Part shown: positions 10,801 through 42,715 of the stretch, in pieces
Position numbering within the stretch: position 1 is the stretch's first letter
Layout of the letters: every line of letters begins with the position of its first letter
Origin: Bolinopsis microptera
Taxonomy: Eukaryota; Ctenophora; Tentaculata; Lobata; Bolinopsidae
NCBI RefSeq assembly: GCF_026151205.1
Contig: NC_087073.1
Coordinates: 2,128,501-2,192,500, forward strand
DNA: 64,000 bases
Direction: 5' to 3'
Translations under genes and position numbers: made by a program
The notes under the pieces: generated by a model
Told to the model about the DNA's origin: nothing
Databases searched by the model: none
The model's input: the letters and a program-made list of their open reading frames with translations, nothing else

Positions 10801-13800
10801 GAACCTATCATTCAGATCTTTACTGGTGTGCGTGTCCGTGTACATCTTTTGTAACTTACTCGTGTACTCGAACCCACATTCTTGCTGTTTGTACAAGAAA
10901 CTTCAGATAAACATGCAAATGTCATTATTCATTAACTTATTAGACACTTGGAACATCGATGTGTACTGTGTACTGTGTACTGTGTACTGTGTACTGTGTG
11001 CTGTGTACTGTGTACTGTGTACTGTGTACTGTGTACTGTGTACTGTGTACTGTGTACTGTGTACTGTGTACTGTGTACTGTGTACTGTGTACATGAACCG
11101 ATTCTAGAGAAGCTCAAAGAATGTGTTTTGACAACAGAATGAGATGAAGGCTGGGAACAAACCTTCAGTTTTGTGTACTGTGTATAATGTATAATGTACA
11201 AACCTTGAGTTTTGAGATCATGCTACCCTCCAGGTCGTGAGATACGGAGGTATCGTTAACAAGTCTACTGGCTAACAAGTTCCGGTAGAACTTCTGGAAA
11301 ACGTCTTTCTCTGTGATGTATTTGAAGATAACCATAACGTCGTTCAAGATACATTCTAACTCTTCTTCTTCGGGGTTTATACGAGAGCTGAAAAGATATT
11401 TGTTTTATTTTCATTTGTTTTATTTTTATTTAATGTATTGGTACGGAGGATCACGGCTCTCGACAATTCTTGTTAAACGGGAGAAAATCAAACAACTGAC
11501 AAATACAACAGCCGTCATTTGGCCACTTGTTGATTACAACTGACATAGGGTATCACTAGCAAAGTAAATGACCTTTGTAAAAAGCCAACAAGTGCCCAAG
11601 CGTCGGTATTATACTCGGTTGTATTTTCTTACCAGTTATTTTATCTGTTTGTTGTCCGCCCTAAAAAAGCTGTAGTGCTCCCTACCAAAGCAATATTACA
11701 ATCTCACGCCTAGCCCTAAATTATTTTCTCTCATGTAAGAAACGATAAAGTCATACTCAAAATTATACGGAAAGAGTATAAATGTTTACACTTTATAGCT
11801 TATGAATTAATTACCTCTTCTTCAAGAGGAGATTGCAGTATTTTGCCAACAATTCAGGCGATTTGCCTGTATTGTTAGCGGCCTCGGACACACAGTTTTT
11901 GTTTATAAATCCAGTACATGCTTTATCCAGTGCCTGTACAAATAGTGAGTTCTTGTCAAAGGACTTGTTTACCAGGTCGTTATACTTCCGATGTACGTCC
12001 AACAAGGCTTGCACGTAACTCTTAGGATCCTGAAGAGAAATTTTAAGTTTTGTGATTTTAAAATTAAAATATTGTACCAAGAAAATTTAGATTCGATAAG
12101 TGATGAATAAAGAGTCTGATTATAAGCTGATAAGTAGTAAACTAACCACAGATTCTTTAGATTCCTGACAACTCTGTACTGCTTTCAGCCCCACCCTCAG
12201 TATGTGATCTTCCAACAATTGTTTGAGATGCTTTAGTCCGCCTTCTAATCGATACACTAACTCGTACATTCTACCAATATCTGTAAACAAATCCCGGTTC
12301 AGAGAGTTACGGGGGGGGGGGGGGGGGGGGTACACTAACTCGTACATTCTACCAATATCTGTAAACAAATCCCGGTTCAGAGAGTTACGGGGGGGGGGGG
12401 GGGGGATACACTAACTCGTACATTCTACCAATATCTGTAAACAAATCCCGGTTCAGAGAGTTACGGGGAGGGGGGGGGATACACTAACTCGTACATTCTA
12501 CCAATATCTGTAAACAAATCCCGGTTCAGAGAGTTACAGGTGGGGGGGGGATACACTAACTCATACATTCTACCAATATCTGTAAACAAATCCCGGTTCA
12601 GAGAGTTACGGGGGGGGGGGGGGGCGGGATACACTAACTCGTACATTCTACCAATATCTGTAAACAAATCCCGGTTCAGAGAGTTACGGGGGGGGGGGGG
12701 ATACACTAACTCGTACATTCTACCAATATCTGTAAACAAATCCCGGTTCAGAGAGTGACGGGGGGGGGGGGGGGGGGGGGCGGGATACACTAACTCGTAC
12801 ATTCTACCAATATCTGTAAACAAATCCCGGTTCAGAGAGTTACGGGGGGGGGGGGGGGGGATACACTAACTCGTACATTCTACCAATATCTGTAAACAAA
12901 TCCCGGTTCAGAGAGTTACGGGGAGGGGGGGGATACACTAACTCGTACATTCTACCAATATCTGTAAACAAATCCCGGTTCAGAGAGTTACAGGTGGGGG
13001 GGGGATACACTAACTCATACATTCTACCAATATCTGTAAACAAATCCCGGTTCAGAGAGTTACGGGGGGGGGGGGGGGGGGCGGGATACACTAACTCGTA
13101 CATTCTACCAATATCTGTAAACAAATCCCGGTTCAGAGAGTTACGGGGGGGGGGGGGGATACACTAACTCGTACATTCTACCAATATCTGTAAACAAATC
13201 CCGGTTCAGAGAGTGACGGGGGGGGGGGGGGGCGGGATACACTAACTCGTACATTCTACCAATATCTGTAAACAAATCCAGGTTCAGAGAGTTACGGGGG
13301 GGGGGGGGGGGGTGGGGGATACACTAACTCGTACATTCTACCAATATCTGTAAACAAATCCCGGTTCAGAGAGTTACGGGGGGGGGGGGGGGGGATACAC
13401 TAACTCGTACATTCTACCAATATCTGTAAACAAATCCCGGTTCAGAGAGTTACGGGGGGGGGGGGATACACTAACTCGTACATTCTACCAATATCTGTAA
13501 ACAAATCCCGGTTCAGAGAGTTACGGGGGGGGGGGGGGGGGATACACTAACTCGTACATTCTACCAATATCTGTAAACAAATCCCGGTTCAGAGAGTTAC
13601 GGGGGGGGGGGATACACTAACTCGTACATTCTACTAATATCTGTAAACAAATCCCGGTTCAGAGAGTTACGGGGGGGGGGGGGGGGGATACTCTAACTCG
13701 TACATTCTACCAATATCTGTAAACAAATCCAGGTTCAGAGAGTTACGGGGGGGGGGGGGGGGATACACTAACTCGTACATTCTACCAATATCTGTAAACA

Positions 13801-16243
13801 AATCCCGGTTCAGAGAGTTACGGGGGGGGGGGGGGGGATACACTAACTCGTACATTCTACCAATATCTGTAAACAAATCCCGGTTCAGAGAGTTACGGGG
13901 GGGGGGGGGGATACACTAACTCGTACATTCTACCAATATCTGTAAACAAATCCCGGTTCAGAGAGTTACGGGGGGGGGGGATACACTAACTCGTACATTC
14001 TACCAATATCTGTAAACAAATCCCGGTTCAGAGAGTTACGGGGGGGGGGGGGGATACACTAACTCGTACATTCTACCAATATCTGTAAACAAATCCCGGT
14101 TCAGAGAGTTACGGGGGGGGGGATACACTAACTCGTACATTCTACTAATATCTGTAAACAAATCCCGGTTCAGAGAGTTACGGGGGGGGGGGATACTCTA
14201 ACTCGTACATTCTACCAATATCTGTAAACAAATCCAGGTTCAGAGAGTTACGGGGGGGGGGGGATACTCTAACTCGTACATTCTACCAATATCTGTAAAC
14301 AAATCCCGGTTCAGAGAGTTACGGGGGGGGGGATACACTAACTCGTACATTCTACCAATATCTGTAAACAAATCCCGGTTCAGAGATCAGAGAGTTAGGG
14401 GGGGGGGGGGGGGGGATACACTAACTCGTACATTCTACCAATATCTGTAAACAAATCCCGGTTCAGAGAGTTACGGGGGGGGGGGGGGGGATACACTAAT
14501 TCGTACATTCTACCAATATCTGTAAACAAATCCCGGTTCAGAGAGTTACGGGGGGGGGGGGGGGATACACTAACTCGTACATTCTACCAATATCTGTAAA
14601 CAAATCCAGGTTCAGAGAGTTACGGGGGGGGGGGGGGGGGGATACACTAACTCGTACATTCTACCAATATTTGTAAACAAATCCAGGTTCAGAGAGTTAC
14701 GGGGGGGGGGGGGATACACTAACTCGTACATTCTACCAATATCTGTAAACAAATCGAGGTTCAGAGAGTTACGGGGGGGGGGGGGGATACACTAACTCGT
14801 ACATTCTACTAATATCTGTAAACAAATCCAGGTTCAGAGAGTTACGGGGGGGGGGGGGGGATACACTAACTCGTACATTCTACCAATATCTGTAAACAAA
14901 TCCCGGTTCAGAGAGTTACGGGGGGGGGGGGGGGATACACTAACTCGTACATTCTACCAATATCTGTAAACAAATCCCGGTTCAGAGAGTTACGGGGGGG
15001 GGGGGGGGTACACTAACTCGTACATTCTACCAATATCTGTAAACAAATCCCGGTTCAGAGAGTTACGGGGGGGGGGGGGGGATACACTAACTCGTACATT
15101 CTACCAATATCTGTAAACAAATCCCGGTTCAGAGAGTTACGGGGGGGGGGGGGATACACTAACTCGTACATTCTACCAATATCTGTAAACAAATCCCGGT
15201 TCAGAGAGTTACGGGGGGGGATACACTAACTCGTACATTCTACCAATATCTGTAAACAAATCCCGGTTCAGAGAGTTACGGGGGGGGGGGGGGGATACAC
15301 TAACTCGTACATTCTACCAATATCTGTAAACAAATCCCGGTTCAGAGAGTTACGGGGGGGGGGGGGGATACACTAACTCGTACATTCTACCAATATCTGT
15401 AAACAAATCGAGGTTCAGAGAGTTACGGGGGGGGGGGGGGGGGGGGATACACTAACTCGTACATTCTACCAATATCTGTAAACAAATCCCGGTTCAGAGA
15501 GTTACGGGGGGGGGGGGGGGGGGATACACTAACTCGTACATTCTACCAATATCTGTAAACAAATCCCGGTTCAGAGAGTTACGGGGAGGGGGGGCGGGTG
15601 ATAAAATTTAAATTACAGCTTTGATCCAGTAACAAAACTTATCAACTCAGCTCTATAAAATTCATAAAACTTATAAAATTGCAAACCTTCGTTTTTATCG
15701 TTATCAAGAAGGTTCTGGAACTCGGAGTAAAATATATCTAGATGTTGCTCCACTAAAACCTGCAAACACCTTTTTTCTAGTTCACTTCTTGTGCTTTCGT
15801 TAAGGTATTTATCGCACCTTTCCTGCTCATCCTTCAACCTTTTCTGTGCTTTCTTCAGATATTCTGGCACCTGATCAGACGGGAGGTCAAGAATATCTTT
15901 CAACTGACTGCATCATTGCATAACTAAAATATGTGCTAGTGTTGCCAAGTGCAAATGTGCAAACATTTTGAGTCTGTTCCAAGAAATGGCATAATGCATT
16001 GCCTTTATTGTATCTTACGGGATTCTGTTCAAGAAATTGCATGCTTTCACTGGTGTAATAACTCGTCGTCTCTGCTAAGAAATGATGTTCGAAGTTCTGA
16101 GAGTACACCAACAATCGGGCCTCAGGGGCGTTTCCTTTCAATCCTAACTGAACAAAACTTTCCACCGCTGTTTTGATGAGGCCGTTGTTCACGACTTCCC
16201 CATTCCTTTCCTTCTCTATCAGTTTCAAGACTGCTCGAGTGAC
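7872..16243 (-). CDS. CUL1: Cullin-1-like SCF ubiquitin ligase scaffold, 13 exons, 5' end not found
   Basis: Cullin-1 scaffolds SCF ubiquitin ligases: its N-terminal cullin repeats bind SKP1/F-box adaptors and its C-terminal domain binds RBX1. Exons on the minus strand, all with GT-AG borders and matching phases: 16243-16019, 15870-15687, 12280-12147, 12029-11815, 11387-11204, 10884-10761, 10596-10426, 10117-9975, 9410-9363, 9141-9053, 8691-8586, 8338-8228, 7952-7872. They sum to 1815 nt, 604 residues plus stop, with no in-frame stop. The product aligns with animal CUL1 from about residue 189 to the end. Landmarks are [10 protein letters not shown] (exon 1 here), [17 protein letters not shown]-type [15 protein letters not shown]-type [17 protein letters not shown], the neddylation-site segment IVRTMKSRK, and a C-terminus ending YQYRA. 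The first ~185 residues usual in the family were not found. At least four introns hold tandem repeats. CUL1 is favoured over other cullins from these motifs. Confidence 0.9.
8366..8508. repeat. 11-bp tandem repeat in a CUL1 intron
   Basis: About eight copies of ACATATTATTT fill the centre of the intron between the last two-thirds CUL1 exons (8338 and 8586). A direct repeat containing ACATATTAATTATTAGCAAT flanks the array on both sides. Confidence 0.9.
9424..9570. repeat. 18-bp tandem repeat in a CUL1 intron
   Basis: The unit AAGTTATAAAAGTTAAGT is repeated about six times with degeneration at its right end, in the intron between CUL1 exons 9975 and 9410. It begins within 15 bases of the 3' splice site. 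Confidence 0.9.
10963..11093. repeat. 7-bp tandem repeat (GTACTGT)n in a CUL1 intron
   Basis: About 19 nearly perfect copies of GTACTGT lie in the intron between exons ending 11204 and starting 10884; one copy reads GTGCTGT. It is open in several frames simply because the unit lacks stops. Confidence 0.95.
12252..15598 (-). repeat. G-rich minisatellite copying a CUL1 splice acceptor and exon start, about 45 units
   Basis: The unit is about 70-80 bp. On the minus (coding) strand it reads: GTAACTCTCTGAACCGGG, then ATTTGTTTACAG (a 3' splice site), then the first 29 bases of the CUL1 exon starting at 12280 (ATATTGGTAGAATG...), then a run of roughly 8-20 C. The copy at 12252-12308 is the native exon edge and the rest lie upstream in the intron. 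I counted about 45 occurrences. Units differ mainly in C-run length, with rare substitutions (CCAGG or CGAGG for CCCGG, CTCTAAC for CACTAAC). The plus-strand G-runs could form G-quadruplexes. Confidence 0.97.
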
Positions 16244-32169: not shown

Positions 32170-32570
32170 CATTGTTTTTCAGTTTGACCCACATTCCACG
32201 CCTTTCTGTTATAGACCTGGGTCTTTGTTCAACAGTCAACACCTGGAGTTAGGATGTTATTCCAGGGTGCGAACAAACTTAATATAACAGTCATGTTCCT
32301 TGTAATGACAAGACAAATTTATTAAAAGAACTTAGATTGGATAGGAATCTGTAGATCGTAAAAAAATTACGAATTCACTGTGTAAACTATAAGTTGATAT
32401 CATACTCATACTCATAGGGTCTACGGAGCGAGCAGAAACAGTTCGATCCACATTTCACGCCTTTCTGTTATAGACCTGGGTCTTTGTTCAACACCTGGAG
32501 TTAGGATGTTATTTCAGGGTGCGAACAAACTTAATATAACAGTCCTGTTCCTTGTAATGTGTGTGTGTAG
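32170..32570. repeat. Direct duplication of about 120 bp, left arm only
   Basis: The segment containing CGCCTTTCTGTTATAGACC and GGTGCGAACAAACTTAATAT occurs at about 32190-32310 and again at 32450-32565. The right arm has one copy (about 50145-50260). Confidence 0.75.
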
Positions 32571-32660
32571 TTACCAGGGCAACTAGTTCAGCCCTCACTC
32601 TCCCCACCACCCAAGTTATCCCCCTCATCTGTTTTCTGATAACACTCCTCTCTCTCTCTC

Positions 32661-35600
32661 CTGGGTAACACCACCGTCCTGTATTCCTCCCTGCGATATA
32701 ACACCATCAAGATGGACTGTATCTCCGTGCTTCTGGTCCAGAACCTGGCGGTGGCAGATCTGCTCTACACGGTGATCGTGCTGCCCATCCTGGTGACGTA
32801 CTCTGCAGGAGGCTGTGTGTTAGGTGAGGGATGGTGTTGGGTGATGAGCCATCCTGGTGACGTACTCTGCAGGGGGCTGTGTGTTAGGTGAGGGATGGTG
32901 TTGGGTGAGGGATGGTGTTGGGTGATGAGCCATCCTGGTGACGTACTCTGCAGGGGGCTGTGTGTTAGGTGAGGGATGGTGTTGGGTGATGAGCCATCCT
33001 GGTGACGTACTCTGCAGAGGGGCTGTGTGTTAGGTGAGGGATGGTGTTGGGTGATGAGCCATCCTGGTGACGTACTCTGCAGGGGGCTGTGTGTTAGGTG
33101 AGGGATGGTGTTGGGTGATGAGCCATCCTGGTGACGTACTCTGCAGGGGGCTGTGTGTTAGGTGAGGGATGGTGTTGGGTGATGAGCCATCCTGGTGACG
33201 TACTCTGCAGGGGGCTGTGTGTTAGGTGAGGGATGGTGTTGGGTGATGAGCCATCCTGGTGACGTACTCTGCAGGGGGCTGTGTGTTAGGTGAGGGATGG
33301 TGTTGGGTGATGAGCCATCCTGGTGACGTACTCTGCAGGGGGCTGTGTGTTAGGTGAGGGATGGTGTTGGGTGATGAGCCATCCTGGTGACGTACTCTGC
33401 AGGGGGGCTGTGTGTTAGGTGGGGGATGGTGTTGGGTGATGAGCCATCCTGGTGACGTACTCTGCAGGGGGCTGTGTGTTAGGTGAGGGATGGTGTTGGG
33501 TGATGAGCCATCCTGGTGACGTACTCTGCAGGGGGCTGTGTGTTAGGTGAGGGATGGTGTTGGGTGATGAGCCATCCTGGTGACGTACTCTGCAGGGGGC
33601 AGTGTGTTAGGTGAGGGATGGTGTTGGGTGATGAGCCATCCTGGTGACGTACTCTGCAGGGGGGCTGGGTGTTAGGTGAGGGATGGTGTTGGGTGATGAG
33701 CCATCCTGGTGACGTACTCTGCAGGGGGCTGGGTGTGTGGTGAGGGATGGTGTTGGGTGATGAGCCATCCTGGTGACGTACTCTGCAGGGGGCTGGGTGT
33801 GTGGTGAGGGATGGTGTTGGGTGATGAGCCATCCTGGTGACGTACTCTGCAGGGGGCTGTGTGTTAGGTGAGGGATGGTGTTGGGTGATGAGCCATCCTG
33901 GTGACGTACTCTGCAGGGGGCTGTGTGTTAGGTGAGGGATGGTGTTGGGTGATGAGCCATCCTGGTGACGTACTCTGCAGGGGGCTGTGTGTTAGGTGAG
34001 GGATGGTGTTGGGTGATGAGCCATCCTGGTGACGTACTCTGCAGGGGAGCTGTGTGTTAGGTGAGGGATGGTGTTGGGTGATGAGCCATCCTGGTGACGT
34101 ACTCTGCAGGGGGCTGTGTGTTAGGTGAGGGATGGTGTTGGGTGATGAGCCATCCTGGTGACGTACTCTGCAGGGGAGCTGTGTGTTAGGTGAGGGATGG
34201 TGTTGGGTGATGAGCCATCCTGGTGACGTACTCTGCAGGGGGCTGTGTGTTAGGTGAGGGATGGTGTTGGGTGATGAGCCATCCTGGTGACGTACTCTGC
34301 AGGGGGCTGTGTGTTAGGTGAGGGATGGTGTTGGGTGATGAGCCATCCTGGTGACGTACTCTGCAGGGGGCTGTGTGTTAGGTGAGGGATGGTGTTGGGT
34401 GATGAGCCATCCTGGTGACGTACTCTGCAGGGGAGCTGTGTGTTAGGTGAGGGATGGTGTTGGGTGATGAGCCATCCTGGTGACGTACTCTGCAGGGGGC
34501 TGTGTGTTAGGTGAGGGATGGTGTTGGGTGATGAGCCATCCTGGTGACGTACTCTGCAGGGGAGCTGTGTGTTAGGTGAGGGATGGTGTTGGGTGATGAG
34601 CCATCCTGGTGACGTACTCTGCAGGGGGCTGTGTGTTAGGTGAGGGATGGTGTTGGGTGATGAGCCATCCTGGTGACGTACTCTGCAGGGGAGCTGTGTG
34701 TTAGGTGAGGGATGGTGTTGGGTGATGAGCCATCCTGGTGACGTACTCTGCAGGGGGCTGTGTGTTAGGTGAGGGATGGTGTTGGGTGATGAGCCATCCT
34801 GGTGACGTACTCTGCGGGGGGGCTGTGTGTTAGGTGAGGGATGGTGTTGGGTGATGAGCCATCCTGGTGACGTACTCTGCAGGGGGCTGTGTGTTAGGTG
34901 AGGGATGGTGTAGGGTGATGAGCCATCCTGGTGACGTACTCTGCAGGGGGCTGGGTGTTAGGTGAGGGATGGTGTTGGGTGATGAGCCAACTCACCTTCA
35001 TCCCGGGGACAGTTACTAACCTTACTGTGCTTGTTATCACTGTTTACAGGTTGAGGACCCTCTTGTCTCCATTCTCAAGTGTATCTGTGACTGCAGGCCG
35101 AGGTGTGGTAGGGTTGACCTGGATAGTATCTCTACTGGGAATTATGATCTCTCTGTCCTACAAGTCCCTCTCAGTGTACAGTCCCACAGCTGCTCGCTGC
35201 AACTCCTCTCTCTGTCCTACAAGTCCCTCTCAGTGTTCAGTCTCACAGCTGCTCGCTGCAACTCCTCCATCTAGGGACCCTGTAGGAGGTCCTGTGTTTC
35301 TGGTGGTAGCTACAGGTCTTCTGATCATCCTACCAGTCTTCGCTATCACACTCGACAACATTGCTATGGGAGTCACTGCTTTTAGGAACTCATCCGCTGG
35401 AAACCGAAGCAAGGGTATAACTACTGAGTACTGTTACCGCACTTTCAGGACTTTTCATAGCGAGCTGGACTCCTCTCATTGTCTTCACCTTCTTCAGGAT
35501 ATGGAGGGTACCGGTGCCCATTTTATTAGACTTACTGGCGTTTCATTGCATCTTCTTGGATACTGCGGGTAACCCTGTTTTGTACACTTTTACTAACAGG

Positions 35601-35747
35601 CGATTTAGGGAGTATGTGAGGAACAGTGTCGTGTTGTGCTGCAGAGGAAGAAAGGGGAGCAACCTAGTGGGAATTTCTCTCCGCACTACAAATAATCCCA
35701 CTCTTTCTCCTACCCCTCCTTCCTTTGCTATGGAGTCGGAGTCGTAG
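32661..35747 (+). CDS. Rhodopsin-class GPCR, left-arm copy, reading frame interrupted by minisatellites
   Basis: This is a seven-helix membrane receptor of unknown ligand. The TM1 end and TM2 read GNTTVLYSSLR and NLAVADLLYT (32661-32790). TM3 and the DRY-like region read VITVYRLRTLLSP (about 35030-35075). TM4 is WIVSLLG, TM5 FLVVATGLLIILPVF and TM6 GLFIASWTPLIVFTFF. TM7 carries NPVLYTFTNRRF (35570-35610), and the tail ends in SESES. A 64-bp minisatellite (32791-34988) separates TM2 from TM3. A 59-bp repeat lies in extracellular loop 2. TM6 is reached in frame only if GTATAAC...TTTCAG (35415-35448, 34 nt) is removed. In the TM1 frame a TGATAA lies 24 nt upstream; hydrophobic TM1 residues are in the neighbouring frame. 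It is functional if the array is spliced out; otherwise a pseudogene. Confidence 0.7.
32791..34988 (+). repeat. 64-bp coding-derived minisatellite in the GPCR, about 34 units (left arm)
   Basis: The unit begins GGTGACGTACTCTGCAGG, continues GGCTGTGTGTTAGGTGAGGG and ends GGGTGATGAGCCATCCT. One unit is exactly the coding segment VTYSAGGCVLGEGWCWVMS that links TM2 to TM3. 64 is not a multiple of 3, so direct readthrough shifts frame each unit. Each unit holds CTCTGCAG/G (acceptor-like) and AG/GTGAGG (donor-like). Variants are mainly one extra G or GAGCTG for GGCTG. Confidence 0.97.
35153..35271 (+). repeat. 59-bp repeat in GPCR extracellular loop 2, two units (left arm)
   Basis: The unit CTGTCCTACAAGTCCCTCTC...GCTCGCTGCAACTC occurs twice. 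The 59-nt duplication would shift the frame, but AC is missing from CCATCTACAGGG just downstream (35270), so the net change is 57 nt and TM5 stays in frame. Confidence 0.92.
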
Positions 35748-35984: not shown

Positions 35985-37637
35985 TTAAAACGGAGTCTTC
36001 TCAATTATCCATTGATGTCTTGCTTGTCTTTCTGCTACTTCTTTGGTTACCGTTTGTAGCCACTGTCCATCGTCTGTGGTTCCTATGACATACCCAGGCC
36101 AGTACCGATTGTAGATAAGTAGAATATCACTGAAACCGACAAATGTACCGAGATTTATCATCGAAGAAGCAGGGCTTAGATACCAAGAACACTTACGAAT
36201 GTCAACACTTAAGTGATGATCCCAAAATACATACCAATTGTTTTTACCCATGCAAAGGTAGTAATTGGGAGTTGTGTCAGAGGTGATTAAGAAGTATTGT
36301 TGATAATACGCTACTCTTTTATCCGACAACGCATCTAGATGAGTGAACTTGAGCCTAATTGGTGATGTGTCTGTCAGCCTTGGATAATTGTGTTTATCAA
36401 TTGATATGTACCTACTTAATCCTCTACTCCGCAGGTAACATGTCTTGGATGTATCAAAATATCTCTCATTTTTCAAGAGGTTTGATAGAGCAATCTGAGC
36501 ACGGTAAGGATACTCCTTGAATTTTTCAATCAGTGACTTCAGTTCATTTGCATGGCTGTAGCGAAACTTTGTCTTGAGATCAATTTGAAGTGTAGTAGCT
36601 TCATTTGCAATATCTTTAACTAAATCAGCTGCATTTTCCGACAGGAAAGAGAAGGTCTCATCTTTTTCTTTCAGTTCAAGGATACTATTGGTTCGACTTT
36701 TAACATCTTCGAAGGCAGCAGATATCTGAACAATTTCATCCACATTTTCCTGAATTGATAGGGCATAGTGTCTAAATCCAAAGGAAGCATAATATATTTG
36801 AAACATGGAGTGGTATTCAACGTGATGAACTCGAGAAGTTTCAAGTGATTCGATACTGTGCATGAATCCCTCTGCAAATTTTAACACTCCAGAAATGTCA
36901 GGCCTTGGAGGAGGTCTTTCACTGCCCACAGTGAACACGTTTATTTGCGAGGCTCCGCGTTGATGTAGCTGTCTTAGAGCATCTTTCAGTTGTGACACAG
37001 TGTCATAACTTTCTGGAAACTGTGCAAGATGATGATCAAGTGTTGCCTTTTCTTTTCTGGTAATTAAAGAAAACTCCATGGTTATGTATAGGTAACCTCC
37101 ATATACTACTTTGCTTAGGCAGTGCGTCCCATAAAATCCGACAAAATCTTTGTAATCTTCGTTTTTCAGAAGGTTTTCAGCACGTTTTGTAAAAGTAAAT
37201 TCTCCTACTTCCGAAGCATTTGTTGTAACATCAATTTTTATTACAAGGACTGTGCTAAGTTCAGTGATATGCGATGTTTTGAAATATTCATTTAAACTTG
37301 GTGACGTTGCTGTAAGAAATGCTCCAGCCGTGAAAAGTTCCCCAGAAAGAAAAGAAAATGTCTCTCCCCCTGTTCTGCATGCCTTTAACTGTATTTGAAT
37401 TCTTTTGTATGGCTTTTCATCAAGACCCTTCACCTTAACTGCAGCATTGAATGTAGGCTGCAACTTTAAACTGTTGTAACCATTACCCCACTCAATATCA
37501 CTGGGACTAGAAGCAAAAGGTGCTTTGATAACCGTTTGGTCATATACTTTTGTTGCCACAAACTTACTATCAATTACAGCAGCGTTGATAGTTAAGTATG
37601 TTAATGTTATCAATAGTAAAAGTCCTGCAAACGCCAT
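35985..37637 (-). CDS. Secreted MACPF-domain protein, left-arm copy
   Basis: MACPF proteins form membrane pores or act in immunity, egg defence or development; which role applies here is unknown. The 550-residue, single-exon frame starts with a hydrophobic signal peptide (about 1-20). A MACPF domain follows (about 30-380), with the family signature YGTHCLSKVVYGG at 169-181 after an FVGF lead-in. Helix-forming stretches flank it, as expected for the membrane-inserting clusters. The C-terminal ~150 residues (about 400-550) form a separate Trp/Tyr-rich, probably beta-rich domain I cannot name; it may be a binding module. The right-arm copy differs at 10 residues and is equally intact. The gene lies 494 bp from the inner edge of the arm and is transcribed away from the spacer. 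No intron is visible. Confidence 0.88.
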   Translation of the reverse strand: MAFAGLLLLITLTYLTINAAVIDSKFVATKVYDQTVIKAPFASSPSDIEWGNGYNSLKLQPTFNAAVKVKGLDEKPYKRIQIQLKACRTGGETFSFLSGELFTAGAFLTATSPSLNEYFKTSHITELSTVLVIKIDVTTNASEVGEFTFTKRAENLLKNEDYKDFVGFYGTHCLSKVVYGGYLYITMEFSLITRKEKATLDHHLAQFPESYDTVSQLKDALRQLHQRGASQINVFTVGSERPPPRPDISGVLKFAEGFMHSIESLETSRVHHVEYHSMFQIYYASFGFRHYALSIQENVDEIVQISAAFEDVKSRTNSILELKEKDETFSFLSENAADLVKDIANEATTLQIDLKTKFRYSHANELKSLIEKFKEYPYRAQIALSNLLKNERYFDTSKTCYLRSRGLSRYISIDKHNYPRLTDTSPIRLKFTHLDALSDKRVAYYQQYFLITSDTTPNYYLCMGKNNWYVFWDHHLSVDIRKCSWYLSPASSMINLGTFVGFSDILLIYNRYWPGYVIGTTDDGQWLQTVTKEVAERQARHQWIIEKTPF

Positions 37638-38131
37638 GTCTCACTCTACGTAGCCAAAGAATCAGACCCACGTTCAAAGTGTGAACAAGGTTGCACCAAA
37701 AAACAGGTTCAAGATTATGCTGGCTTTCTCTCGGTAAAACTGTAAACGTACAGCGCAGTACTGCAGTATGTCAAACTTCACAAGAATATACTATGTAGAA
37801 AGAGTAAAACAAAATGGCCACTAGCTACACCTCGCGCTAAGTTGATTAACTGAAGCTCACCATCTGCTCAAATGACGTCAGATGCATTTCGAATGGATGA
37901 ATAAAACAACGAAAATTTAGTCATCTGTAACTTGGGAACACCAGTTGCAGGTGGGACCACTGTAACAACGCTCACAAAGATGTATTCTTGTGTAAATTTG
38001 TATTGATCCCGTTTTATGCGACAAGGAAAAATGCTATTATCAGAAAAGGAATTACTCGACGTTTCAATGTTACAACATCGTATTCATGATCTAAAAATCC
38101 AAGAAAACATTGCAACCATAATACTCATAAA
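37638..38131 (-). promoter_or_regulatory. MACPF upstream region, shared by both arms
   Basis: This 494-bp stretch between the MACPF start codon and the inner arm edge is nearly identical to 42226-42715. It must hold the proximal promoter of each copy unless the spacer contributes. I see no canonical TATA box close to the start. Confidence 0.35.
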
Positions 38132-41100
38132 AATATCGATTTTATTGGGGTCACAACGGCATAAAAGTGTTAGTAACATTACTCATTCCTTCATTAGTAT
38201 AGAGGCGCCATAAGCCCCGTTTTTGTTGCTTTAACCCTAATCTTTGGTATATAATTATTATGTTTAGATTAGATATGCAATCAAAGTTGAATTTTATATT
38301 CTTGTGGGGGGTTTATATAATGTATTATTACAGAGAGAGAGTCGCTAAGGGTCCCGATGGAAAAGGTTTAGGGACACATAACTCAGTAGCGATTGTAACT
38401 CACCGCCCCGAACTTGCGTTGAGTTTTGCCGTTTAGACATGAGCAATTTGAAAAGGCAGATTGGGGAGACATCCAAATGAATATTTAAAATCTATATTTA
38501 ATTGAAGGATTTGATTACAAGAAATATTGTGATGAATAGTTTGACCGATTTAACAGAGCACGACTGGACTGCCCAGAACCGAAACCATTTGGCGCCAATT
38601 GATAATTTTCAATAAATAGTGTTTTTCCAGTATTGGTGCCCTGATAGTTTAGATTACGTAGTCATGTTTCTTCTGCGTAAGACTTATCAGACCTTTAGGA
38701 TGTTTTCTTTAACTACTTTGGGTTGTTTTAAAGTTCGATAATAATAATAATATATTAATGTATAGTGTGGTGTAATGATAAATATACAAAATATATAATA
38801 CTGAGTGCGTCCTATAATAAATCCAAATCTATAAACTGCAGTACCACATCATTGAGTAACTGTATAAGACCTCTGTACGTGTCCGCTGCGCACCATGGTA
38901 GCTACTCTCCACTAAAGTCTTCTATTGTTGTTGTAATTCACATAATAAAAATATAATGAGATTTAGAGTGCGTAATATAATATAGAACTGATACGTGTAC
39001 GCTATCACTTTACTGGCAAGCGGTCAACTCTACCCATGATTATGGGTTTTTGGTCAAATAAATTAGAGGTAATACTCAAATACGAAGGTCAAAAACCTAA
39101 GTACACCCCGATAAAAATAAAAAAAAAAAGCTAAAAGTTGTAAAAGTAATTTACCAAACGATAAATAGTATGGTGAGTATAAGGGCGGAGGTCGTGCTTG
39201 CCAGCACTGTGATATATGAGCTAACGTGCGTCACTAAAGTGACTCAATAGGTATGTCGATCTTATCTCATTGTACACAGCTGTGTCCGGTATAGCAGTAT
39301 ACTACAATTTTTGATAAGAATAGATTAAAAAACATTTGACACTTGATAGTGTAGAGTTGAGACACAGTTAATAAACTGCGTTACTAAAATGCTATACAGC
39401 AAAAACAGAAGCCCCTTACCAAACACTCTACCTACTGACTCCAACCACCCTAACATCTTGTGGGACCACTCTTCTGCCTGCTTTAAGCTTTACAATGAAC
39501 TTAAAGTCAGAGATTCAGTAAACTTATTTGTGTCACCTTTGTGAGCATAAAATCCGGGATTGGAGTATTATTCATTGATACACTGGCAAAATATGGTTTT
39601 GCTCAAACAGTTTCCAAACCAACACGAGTCACTGACCACAGTGCCACCCTTATTGACCATGTTTACACAAATAATATTGAAAACACATTAAGTAGTAACG
39701 TTCTAACATTCGACATCTCTGATCATCTTGCAACATTAACCACTATAAAGCTACGTGCAGTATCACAAAAGCACACCACACACTCGAATAGGACCAATAC
39801 CACAAAATATCGTCAAACACGTACTATTAATGAAGCCAACAATGCCATCTTCAAGGAGCTATTGGAAGGGGAGACGTGGGAGGTAGCGCGGGAATCAGGC
39901 TGTGCAAATGAACAGTATGATAAATTCTCAGAAATATACATGAAACATTACAACACTGCATATAATACCCCGTTAAGAGCAATCGTAGTCGTCGCGAAAA
40001 TGAACGGTCTGATCCGAAGCCGTGGATACTTCCATGGCTCGAAACGGCCTGCTCACGTAAACAGCATTTATATCATCTGAATATCACTGGGCCTACTTAT
40101 GAAAACATAGCCGCATACGATAAAATGAAATTATTTTGCAGTAAACACGTTAATCTTGCCAAGGAGCGGTATTACAAAAAACAATTTGAAAAATATCAGG
40201 ACTGTTCCAAAAAACAATGGGAGATAATCAACGGCCTGCTAAACAGAAAAAGACGGGGATCTGATCAGATTAGATTGAGGGATACTGACGGGAAGATCCT
40301 GAGTACTAACTCGGCTGTCGCTGAAAAGTTTAATGGCTACTTTTCCAGCATCGCAGCCAACATCAAGTCTCAGATCAGTTCCCGACAGACCTTCGATCCT
40401 GGGGGGTTCCAGGACTATCTGACCGGGTCATGTCCAACGTCTATCTACCTTGAACCTGCGACACCTATCGAGATACATAGAATTATTATTGGCCTCAAAA
40501 ATAAGGCAACTCTCGATTCAAAAATTGAGCCTTTGAAAGTAGCTAGCACATGCCAAAATTTTGTATGTACCTTTGCATCAGTAGTCAACACATCTTTTGC
40601 AGAGGGAACTTTCCCTAAAGCTCTGAAAACCGCAAAAGTTACACCTATACACAAAGGAGGTTCCAAACTCGACGTAGCAAATTATAGACCTATCTCGCTT
40701 TTGGGCTCGTTCTCAAAAATTTACGAAAAACTCATGCACAGGCGGGTACTAGAATTTCTCGACAAGAATAACTCACTATTCGAGAATCAATACGGATTCC
40801 GACCAGGAAGATCATGCGAGCATGCGCTTCTCAATGCTCAGAGCTCCATTCTGCATTCCCTTAATAAGAACCAAATAACACTACTATTACTTTTAGACTA
40901 TAGCAAGGCATTTGACGTCCTAGATCACGCGACATTACTCAGGAAACTTGAGCATTACGGTATTCGCGGCATTGCCTTGAAATGGTTCGAGTCATACCTT
41001 AATGGTCGCAGTCAATTTGTCTCCTTGAACGGCTCCAATTCATCATTAGAATCTATGGTATACGGTGTTCCACAAGGTAGAATATTAGGCCCCCTGCTTT

Positions 41101-42225
41101 TCGTTATATATATCAATGACTTACCAGGAATCAGTAACTTAGCTAAATTTATATTATACGCAGACGATGCAAATATAATTATCACCGGATCAAATATACA
41201 GATCTTCCAAAGTTTTGTACAATCTCACTTAAATTTCTGTTCGCTCGTTTGGGGTTTTGCTGCAAAATCTCATATTAACTCACTGTTCACTAAACAAAAA
41301 CAAGGAATACGAGCAGTTATGCCGGGTTACGTGAATTACTATTACAAAGATGGTAAACTTCCGGATCATACTAAAGCTACGTTTAAAGAGTACGAAATAT
41401 TAACTGTACACGGGGTAATCATAAAAAATGCTCTGACTCTGATGCACAAGATAAATTACATGCCTGGCCTTCTGCCGTCGTCGATAAAAGACTTATTTCC
41501 TCCCGATTTACCAAAGTATGGCACATCTTATGACGACAATATCGACTGGCTATCAACGTACTCTCAGACTCAACCAGATCTACGCGCTAGTGTTCTGTAT
41601 AAAGGTCCTATATTAGCTATTACCGAGCACAACATTAGTCGCATAACTTGCCCATCTAGCATTTTCTCAATAAGCATTTATAAGAAATCAGCAAAGCGTG
41701 TAATGATAGAACTACAAAGCTCAGGAAACGATGAAGAATGGCCAACTTTTCTGTAATAATTTACCCGGGCTACGTAAATCAGCAAGATCAGGCACTCAAC
41801 AAATCAACTACCGAGAATAACCTAAGGAATAAGTAAAACTAGACGGTTAGCACACCGTTAGAACAGCCGACACTTAATAGCAACCTAACATATGCAGCTC
41901 AACTTTCACTATTATATCCCATCTAAATCACTTATCGTGCCATCCTGACAGCACATTCCATATTTCACTGCCAACTAGCGCAAACCTATACTGATAAAAC
42001 ACCTACGACAGTATTATCAAGTAAAGAATTTTATATAAACGTTTAAGCTTTTAAATGTGTTTGCAGATCAGGGTCATCAGAATCAACTGATAAAATCTAG
42101 ACGAAATAACTATGAGTTCGATGGCATGTAATTTGCGTGCCCTTCGGGGATTAATATTGATTAATACAATTATTATATATTTTGAGTAAACATTGACTGG
42201 TGTAAAAGCCAGCCCCAAACAAACA
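38132..42225. other. Spacer of the inverted repeat, unique sequence with a decayed retrotransposon
   Basis: This 4.1-kb segment lies between the two arms. The left 1.2 kb (38132-39380) has no recognised gene. The rest is occupied by a plus-strand non-LTR retrotransposon whose 3' end abuts the right arm. Confidence 0.8.
39390..42225 (+). mobile_element. Decayed non-LTR retrotransposon in the palindrome spacer
   Basis: Parts in order are: a short frame (39390-39543, MLYSKNRSPLP...); an endonuclease C-terminus (39541-40080) with TRVTDHSATLIDHVYTNN and the SDH motif; and a reverse transcriptase (40125-41756) with PIHKGG, NYRPISLL, YGFRPGRS, DYSKAFD, GVPQG and the YADD catalytic box. After YADDANIII the frame jumps directly to a C-terminal HLNFCSLVWG segment, so the RT thumb and linker are deleted in frame. 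The endonuclease N-terminus is also missing. The 3' end (GAGTAAACATTGACTGG..., to 42225) resembles the 3' end of the element at 54.3-55.6 kb. It cannot be autonomous. Confidence 0.8.
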
Positions 42226-42715
42226 TTTATGAGTATTATGGTTGCAATGTATTCTTGGATTTTTAGATCATGAATACGATGTTGTAACATTGAAACGTTG
42301 AGTAATTCCTTTTCTGATAAGAGCATTTTTCCTTGTTGCATAAAACGGGATCAATACAAATTTACACAAGAATACACCTTTGTGAGCGTTGTTACAGTGG
42401 TCCCACCTGCAACTGGTGTTCCCAAGTTACAGATGACTAAATTTTCGTTGTTTTATTCATCCATTCGAAATGCATCTGACGTCATTTGAGCAGATGGTGA
42501 GCTTCAGTTAATCAACTTAGCGCGAGGTGTAGCTAGTGGCCATTTTGTTTTACTCTTTCTACATAGTATATTCTTGTGAAGTTTGACATACTGCAGTACT
42601 GCGCTGTACTTTTACCGAGAGAAAGCCAGCATAATCTTGAACCTGTTTTTTGGTGCAACCTTGGTTATTCACACTTTGAACGTGGGTCTGGTTCTTTGGC
42701 TACTTAGAGTGAGAC

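Follow-up and report, generated by a model that had tools for sequence, protein, structure and literature searches.

Tandem amplification of a receptor coding segment in Bolinopsis microptera resembles intron birth in what is probably a pseudogene

The sequences from which new introns arise are rarely identified, so a case of intron gain in which the pre-duplication paralog survives would be valuable. Does a receptor locus of the ctenophore Bolinopsis microptera offer such a case? In the 64,000-nucleotide stretch analyzed here (contig NC_087073.1; hereafter the window), a 64-bp coding segment of a class A receptor gene is repeated many times in tandem, and the first-pass annotation had read the array as an apparent newborn intron, spliced from the donor in its first unit to the acceptor in its last. 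The positions of the features discussed are collected in Table 1.

Table 1. Features of the receptor locus and of other arrays; positions refer to the window unless a locus label (L) is given.
Feature	Position	Strand	Remarks
23-bp match to C7 sequence ~3 kb further upstream	32565..32587	+	E 1e-4; marks loss of the start-codon region
Copy 1, second half of TM1 through TM2 to first donor-like site	32643..32823	+	open frame
Array 1, 34 units of the 64-bp TM2-TM3 coding segment	32785..34988	+	bounded by CCA at 32785 and 34989
Donor-like GT, unit 1 (TTAG/GTGAGG)	32824..32825	+	score 9.8 of 12.6 bits
Acceptor-like AG, last unit (CTCTGCAG/G)	34945..34946	+	score 5.4 of 15.4 bits
Copy 1, TM3 to C-terminus	34989..35747	+	frameshifted before TM6 (+7 bp)
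ECL2 coding segment, tandem duplication, copy 1	35148..35267	+	59 bp x 2
551-aa ORF, neighbor of the receptor, two copies	35985-37640 and 42713-44368
Copy 2 of the putative receptor pseudogene	44570..50113	-	approximate limits, array 2 included
ECL2 segment, several tandem units, copy 2	45087..45489	-	units of 46-61 bp
Array 2, 64 units of the TM2-TM3 segment	45640..49761	-	in the inverted second copy
150-bp insert, copy 2 only	49872..50021	-	14-bp terminal inverted repeats, 8-bp flanking direct repeat (CCACCGCC); read from sequence
Cullin-1 array, 45 units of 73 bp	12251..15594	-
56-bp unit, ~178 copies, contig C7	L035:3028-9999 with L021:1-3011		beside the intact receptor paralog
C10 array, 75 bp x 8	L054:9406-10000		TRF

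Array 1 lies where it had first been placed. TRF returned a period of 64 bp with approximately 33 copies and 98% matches, running to 34989, and when the 34 units are cut at the unit start all are 64 or 65 bp in length, with the single exception of one of 81 bp. CTCTGCAGG is present in 32 of the 34 units and AGGTGAGG in 31. A hypothetical junction from the unit 1 donor (at 32824) to the unit 34 acceptor (ending at 34946) would remove 2123 nt and add 15 nt, that is, five codons, and the frame of this copy of the gene (copy 1) would then be open from 32643 to 35572; without splicing, copy 1 has stops in all three frames. The arithmetic of the first-pass annotation is thus reproduced. Five codons would be added because the preferred acceptor lies 15 nt ahead of the donor, which is the acceptor-to-donor distance in a standard unit and agrees with the further remark that inner units could yield in-frame micro-exons of 15 nt. 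The classical AGGT acceptor of the unit scores 2.6 bits, below CTCTGCAG at 5.4.

The strength of this pair of sites was compared with that of control coding sequence, using splice-site matrices built from approximate metazoan frequencies, so that all scores are approximate. In eight control coding sequences (windows overlapping the receptor unit omitted; locus L031 contributing just a 246-bp ORF), a pair at least as strong as that of the unit occurred in 4 of 8772 64-bp windows, once in frame. At moderate strength (6/3 bits), pairs were found in 524 of these windows (372 in frame), and at 4/2 bits, in an earlier control on two receptor genes with the unit included, in 771 of 2062 (389 in frame). 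The exact strength of the unit's pair is therefore rare, and weaker pairs are common in coding windows. For reference, two donors of the Cullin-1 gene in the window (see below) score 4.2 and 5.6 bits, and two of its acceptors 6.7 and 8.5 bits. The rarity of the pair lends real support to the intuition that the array could be spliced, tempered by the fact that the case was chosen for such looks.

The state of the gene before amplification is preserved on contig C7, where an array-free paralog (L021:4069-5100, minus strand) encodes an uninterrupted class A receptor of 343 aa with a full-length Pfam 7tm_1 match. This paralog has exactly one unit, which bears out the identification of the unit as the ancestral TM2-TM3 coding segment, and the five closest relatives (P0007-P0011) have one YSAGGWVLG segment each. 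Because the C7 paralog and these relatives have a single unit, the ancestral gene was intronless at this point and the array is derived. The five extra residues predicted from splicing occur in none of the eight relatives aligned (8 of 28, among them P0014, which is without its N-terminal third). When the TM3-TM5 frame of copy 1 was used as a protein query, six receptors were retrieved, all among the earlier 28 relatives; the best receptor match is 88-90% identical. P0014, a related receptor from another source, starts between TM2 and TM3, at the site of the array (MLGKGWCWAMSQ...), and that a similar interruption lies upstream in its gene is only a guess. Upstream of the intact C7 paralog, approximately 1.9 kb of short TAGTG-type repeats (L021:5933-7794) separate two stretches that adjoin in the window copies.

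The receptor and its neighboring 551-aa ORF are present twice in the window, in inverted orientation. Counting blocks of at least 150 bp outside the arrays, the two arms match from 24.3/58.7 kb to 38.1/42.2 kb; six blocks of at least 500 bp are 93-98% identical and carry private insertions, and shorter blocks are 77-98% identical. The unit variants of the two arrays fall into 12 and 11 types, of which 4 are common to both, and their orders differ. A search of the assembly (264,652,675 bp in 232 contigs, thirteen of them large, at 15.2-26.2 Mb; C1 has 26,206,493 bp and C14 0.2 Mb) with positions 32640-32830, including 46 bp of the unit, gave, among the matches listed, two sites in the window and one on C7, besides a stretch of C11 at 72% identity. 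The 551-aa ORF matched no Pfam family at E up to 0.001; P0006, a distant relative, carries PF01823 as a precomputed annotation. Rfam gave no match within the 64-kb window at gathering thresholds. The spacer between the inverted arms (38132-42225) holds long open frames (39505-41756) that, by eye, resemble a LINE-type reverse transcriptase.

Several lesions are shared by the two copies. Both align to the C7 paralog only from 32587 on, and nothing in them corresponds to the ATG and first codons, as the 23 bp ahead of this point match C7 sequence much further upstream. Relative to the C7 paralog, both copies have gained 4 bp in a TC run of TM1, so that the halves of TM1 lie in different frames, and no frame joins them in either copy. 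Both have also gained 7 bp ahead of TM6, and TM6-TM7 is out of frame in copy 1. The ECL2 segment is repeated in tandem in both, with two units in copy 1 and several in copy 2. Three substitutions found in both copies (N108T, N268D, and F162Y) affect sites that are identical in 20 of 20 relatives (20 of the 28 were used; P0013, P0027, and P0029-P0034 were dropped). Copy 1 alone has lost 3 bp in TM2 and 2 bp in ECL2; the ECL2 loss and the 59-bp ECL2 duplication jointly keep the frame, and TM2-TM5 is open after the hypothetical splice. Private to copy 2 are a 150-bp insert, the loss of 1 bp near ICL3, and, in TM6, a nonsense codon. The insert looks like a small DNA transposon of hAT type. Removal of the array by splicing cures none of the other lesions, and the gene, disabled at several points where its paralog is intact, has the makings of an unprocessed pseudogene. 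A 34-nt GT-AG stretch over the +7 insert of copy 1 would, by eye, keep the frame of TM6; it was rejected as an intron since such a length is unsupported, the frame of copy 2 is not kept, and TM1 is still broken.

Substitutions tell of the history of the lineage. Between the C7 paralog and copy 1, dN/dS is 0.25 (45.5 synonymous and 34.5 nonsynonymous substitutions over 311 codons, those touching indels excluded here and below), and between the paralog and copy 2 it is 0.27; the lineage thus spent much of its past under constraint. For the time since the inverted duplication, the two copies give a dN/dS of 0.83, with 14 nonsynonymous and 6 synonymous substitutions and one stop over 304 codons, 1-2 of the copy 2 differences beside the insert being possible alignment artefacts. 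Finding 14 nonsynonymous changes among 20 is improbable at a dN/dS of 0.25 (p=0.009) and unremarkable under neutrality, in line with relaxed selection, on small numbers (20 substitutions). Both copies share 25 amino-acid changes relative to the C7 paralog; polarised with P0007, 16 of them fall on the window branch (changes 108 and 109 possibly being a single event), 4 on the C7 branch, and 5 are unplaced (16 vs. 4, p=0.012). The window lineage was long constrained and later released.

The locus is probably a pseudogene of a class A receptor without introns, and its array a minisatellite derived from the exon. The 64-bp segment would have been duplicated in tandem at a 3-bp microhomology, as the CCA at 32785 and that at 34989 lie 64 bp apart in the one-unit gene; slippage and microhomology-mediated tandem duplication commonly leave such a pattern. 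Slippage or unequal exchange would then have lengthened the array within a host gene that was losing, or had lost, its function, after which an inverted segmental duplication would have copied the gene, leaving arrays that now stand at 34 and 64 units. The differing unit orders and counts between the arms fit turnover by unequal exchange. Both this mutational mechanism and the placing of array growth after, not before, gene death are what we infer. A second segment of the gene, in ECL2, is also amplified, and no strong donor was noticed in it by eye. That the TM2-TM3 array was instead spliced out while the receptor gene lived seems unlikely, and yet the unusually good splice-site pair keeps this explanation viable, with the frame-keeping junction and a dN/dS of 0.25 also in its favor; on the other side, no trace distinguishes such a past from growth under neutrality, several lesions were present by the time of the segmental duplication and are common to both copies, and the ECL2 segment was likewise amplified.

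What holds of the newborn-intron reading is the tandem amplification of a coding segment whose splice sites are good and whose splicing would keep the frame. A working intron in a living receptor gene is very improbable, because the gene appears to be dead on other grounds: the halves of TM1 are unjoined in both copies, TM6-TM7 lies out of frame in copy 1, a nonsense codon interrupts copy 2, and the substitutions between the copies are unconstrained. In favor of a working intron stand the splice-site pair, the junction, the constrained history of the lineage, and the open TM2-TM5 frame of spliced copy 1. Long arrays and inverted repeats are prone to assembly errors, and tandem copies could have been invented or collapsed, or two haplotypes joined as an inverted duplication. 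Such an artefact is extremely improbable given that the unit variants differ in kind and order, with only 4 types in common, and that the six long arm blocks have diverged and carry private insertions.

The same window holds a second array, which is a more promising case than that of the receptor. In each unit the end of an intron, with its 3' splice site, is followed by 29 nt from the start of an exon, and the last unit continues into that exon of the gene. TTTACAG was counted 44 times, and the exact site joined to the start of the exon 41 times. The joined exons have a Pfam Cullin match, and their best PDB matches are Cullin-1 chains (E 5.6e-52; best other cullin 1e-21). Because a genome-wide search with the next exon (73 aa) gave a single match, this is probably the sole Cullin-1 locus. 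Only the last acceptor of the array is predicted to give the conserved protein, and the array appears to be of the mirage type (see below) in an apparently living gene.

Gene-derived minisatellites were encountered elsewhere in the assembly as well. The 56-bp unit beside the intact C7 paralog contains an acceptor-like site and the exon-like start of a neighboring gene, for which PDB gave one weak match (E 0.26) and Pfam none. In eight preselected 10-kb stretches, one clean array was found (units of at least 50 bp, at least 5 copies; a GAG-rich stretch on C8 with 65-66% identity was not counted). Its unit, on C10, is possibly the edge of an exon, the last unit on the minus strand running into a putative coding exon that had no PDB match.

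Several known systems invite comparison. In the model of Rogers (1989), an intron is gained through tandem duplication of an exon segment bearing AGGT, and the ATP2A1 case (Hellsten et al., 2011) is presented as a gain by such a duplication (both as outlined in PMC4974935). The receptor array, as an exon-derived minisatellite in a probable pseudogene, is similar in that an exonic segment, single in the ancestral gene, was duplicated in tandem, with splice-like sites drawn from the segment and the frame kept (PMC4974935). It differs in its copy numbers, 34 and 64 as opposed to two, in an acceptor that lies 15 nt ahead of the donor and adds five codons, and in its host gene, which the model takes to be otherwise functional and which is here disabled (PMC4974935). 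The introns of fission yeast that lie in 24-nt tandem repeats also involve several exonic units with proto-splice sites (AGGC in yeast), as described in PMC3629103; they are supported by ESTs, whereas the receptor array sits in a broken gene.

In amphioxus, minisatellites of intron-exon boundaries, termed mirages, come with a model of introns arising from them (as given in PMC3087553). The receptor array shares with mirages its derivation from gene sequence, splice signals in several units, and differences in length between copies, but it lies wholly within an exon, in a gene without introns; the Cullin-1 array fits mirages closely (PMC3087553). Judged by sequence, the receptor segment supplies a usable donor and acceptor and keeps the frame, and it is the Cullin-1 unit, not the receptor unit, that spans an intron-exon boundary. 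Among the papers listed on ctenophore repeats and mirage minisatellites, none was seen to describe mirages from a ctenophore. In humans, genes that lie in segmental duplications have been altered by internal tandem repeats, some with putative novel introns (according to PMC2812944). Minisatellite growth in recently duplicated genes and cryptic splice sites are features in common; the human cases were judged from transcripts, whereas both receptor copies appear to be pseudogenes (PMC2812944).

The receptor array is unlikely to be a working newborn intron; it resembles intron birth, yet in a gene that is apparently dead, and so urges caution with claims of intron gain made from sequence only. 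What makes it valuable is that the array-free paralog survives and that it points to a genome with gene-derived minisatellites at several places, including the Cullin-1 gene. As a tentative and rather speculative reading, such minisatellites may be frequent in Bolinopsis microptera, may be kept in living genes only where they are spliced out, and may serve as recurrent raw material for introns, the Cullin-1 array being a living case and the receptor arrays former or failed ones, spliced while the gene lived. The window makes it testable how often duplicated pieces of genes turn into introns, and the Cullin-1 array how the spliceosome passes across dozens of decoy 3' splice sites.
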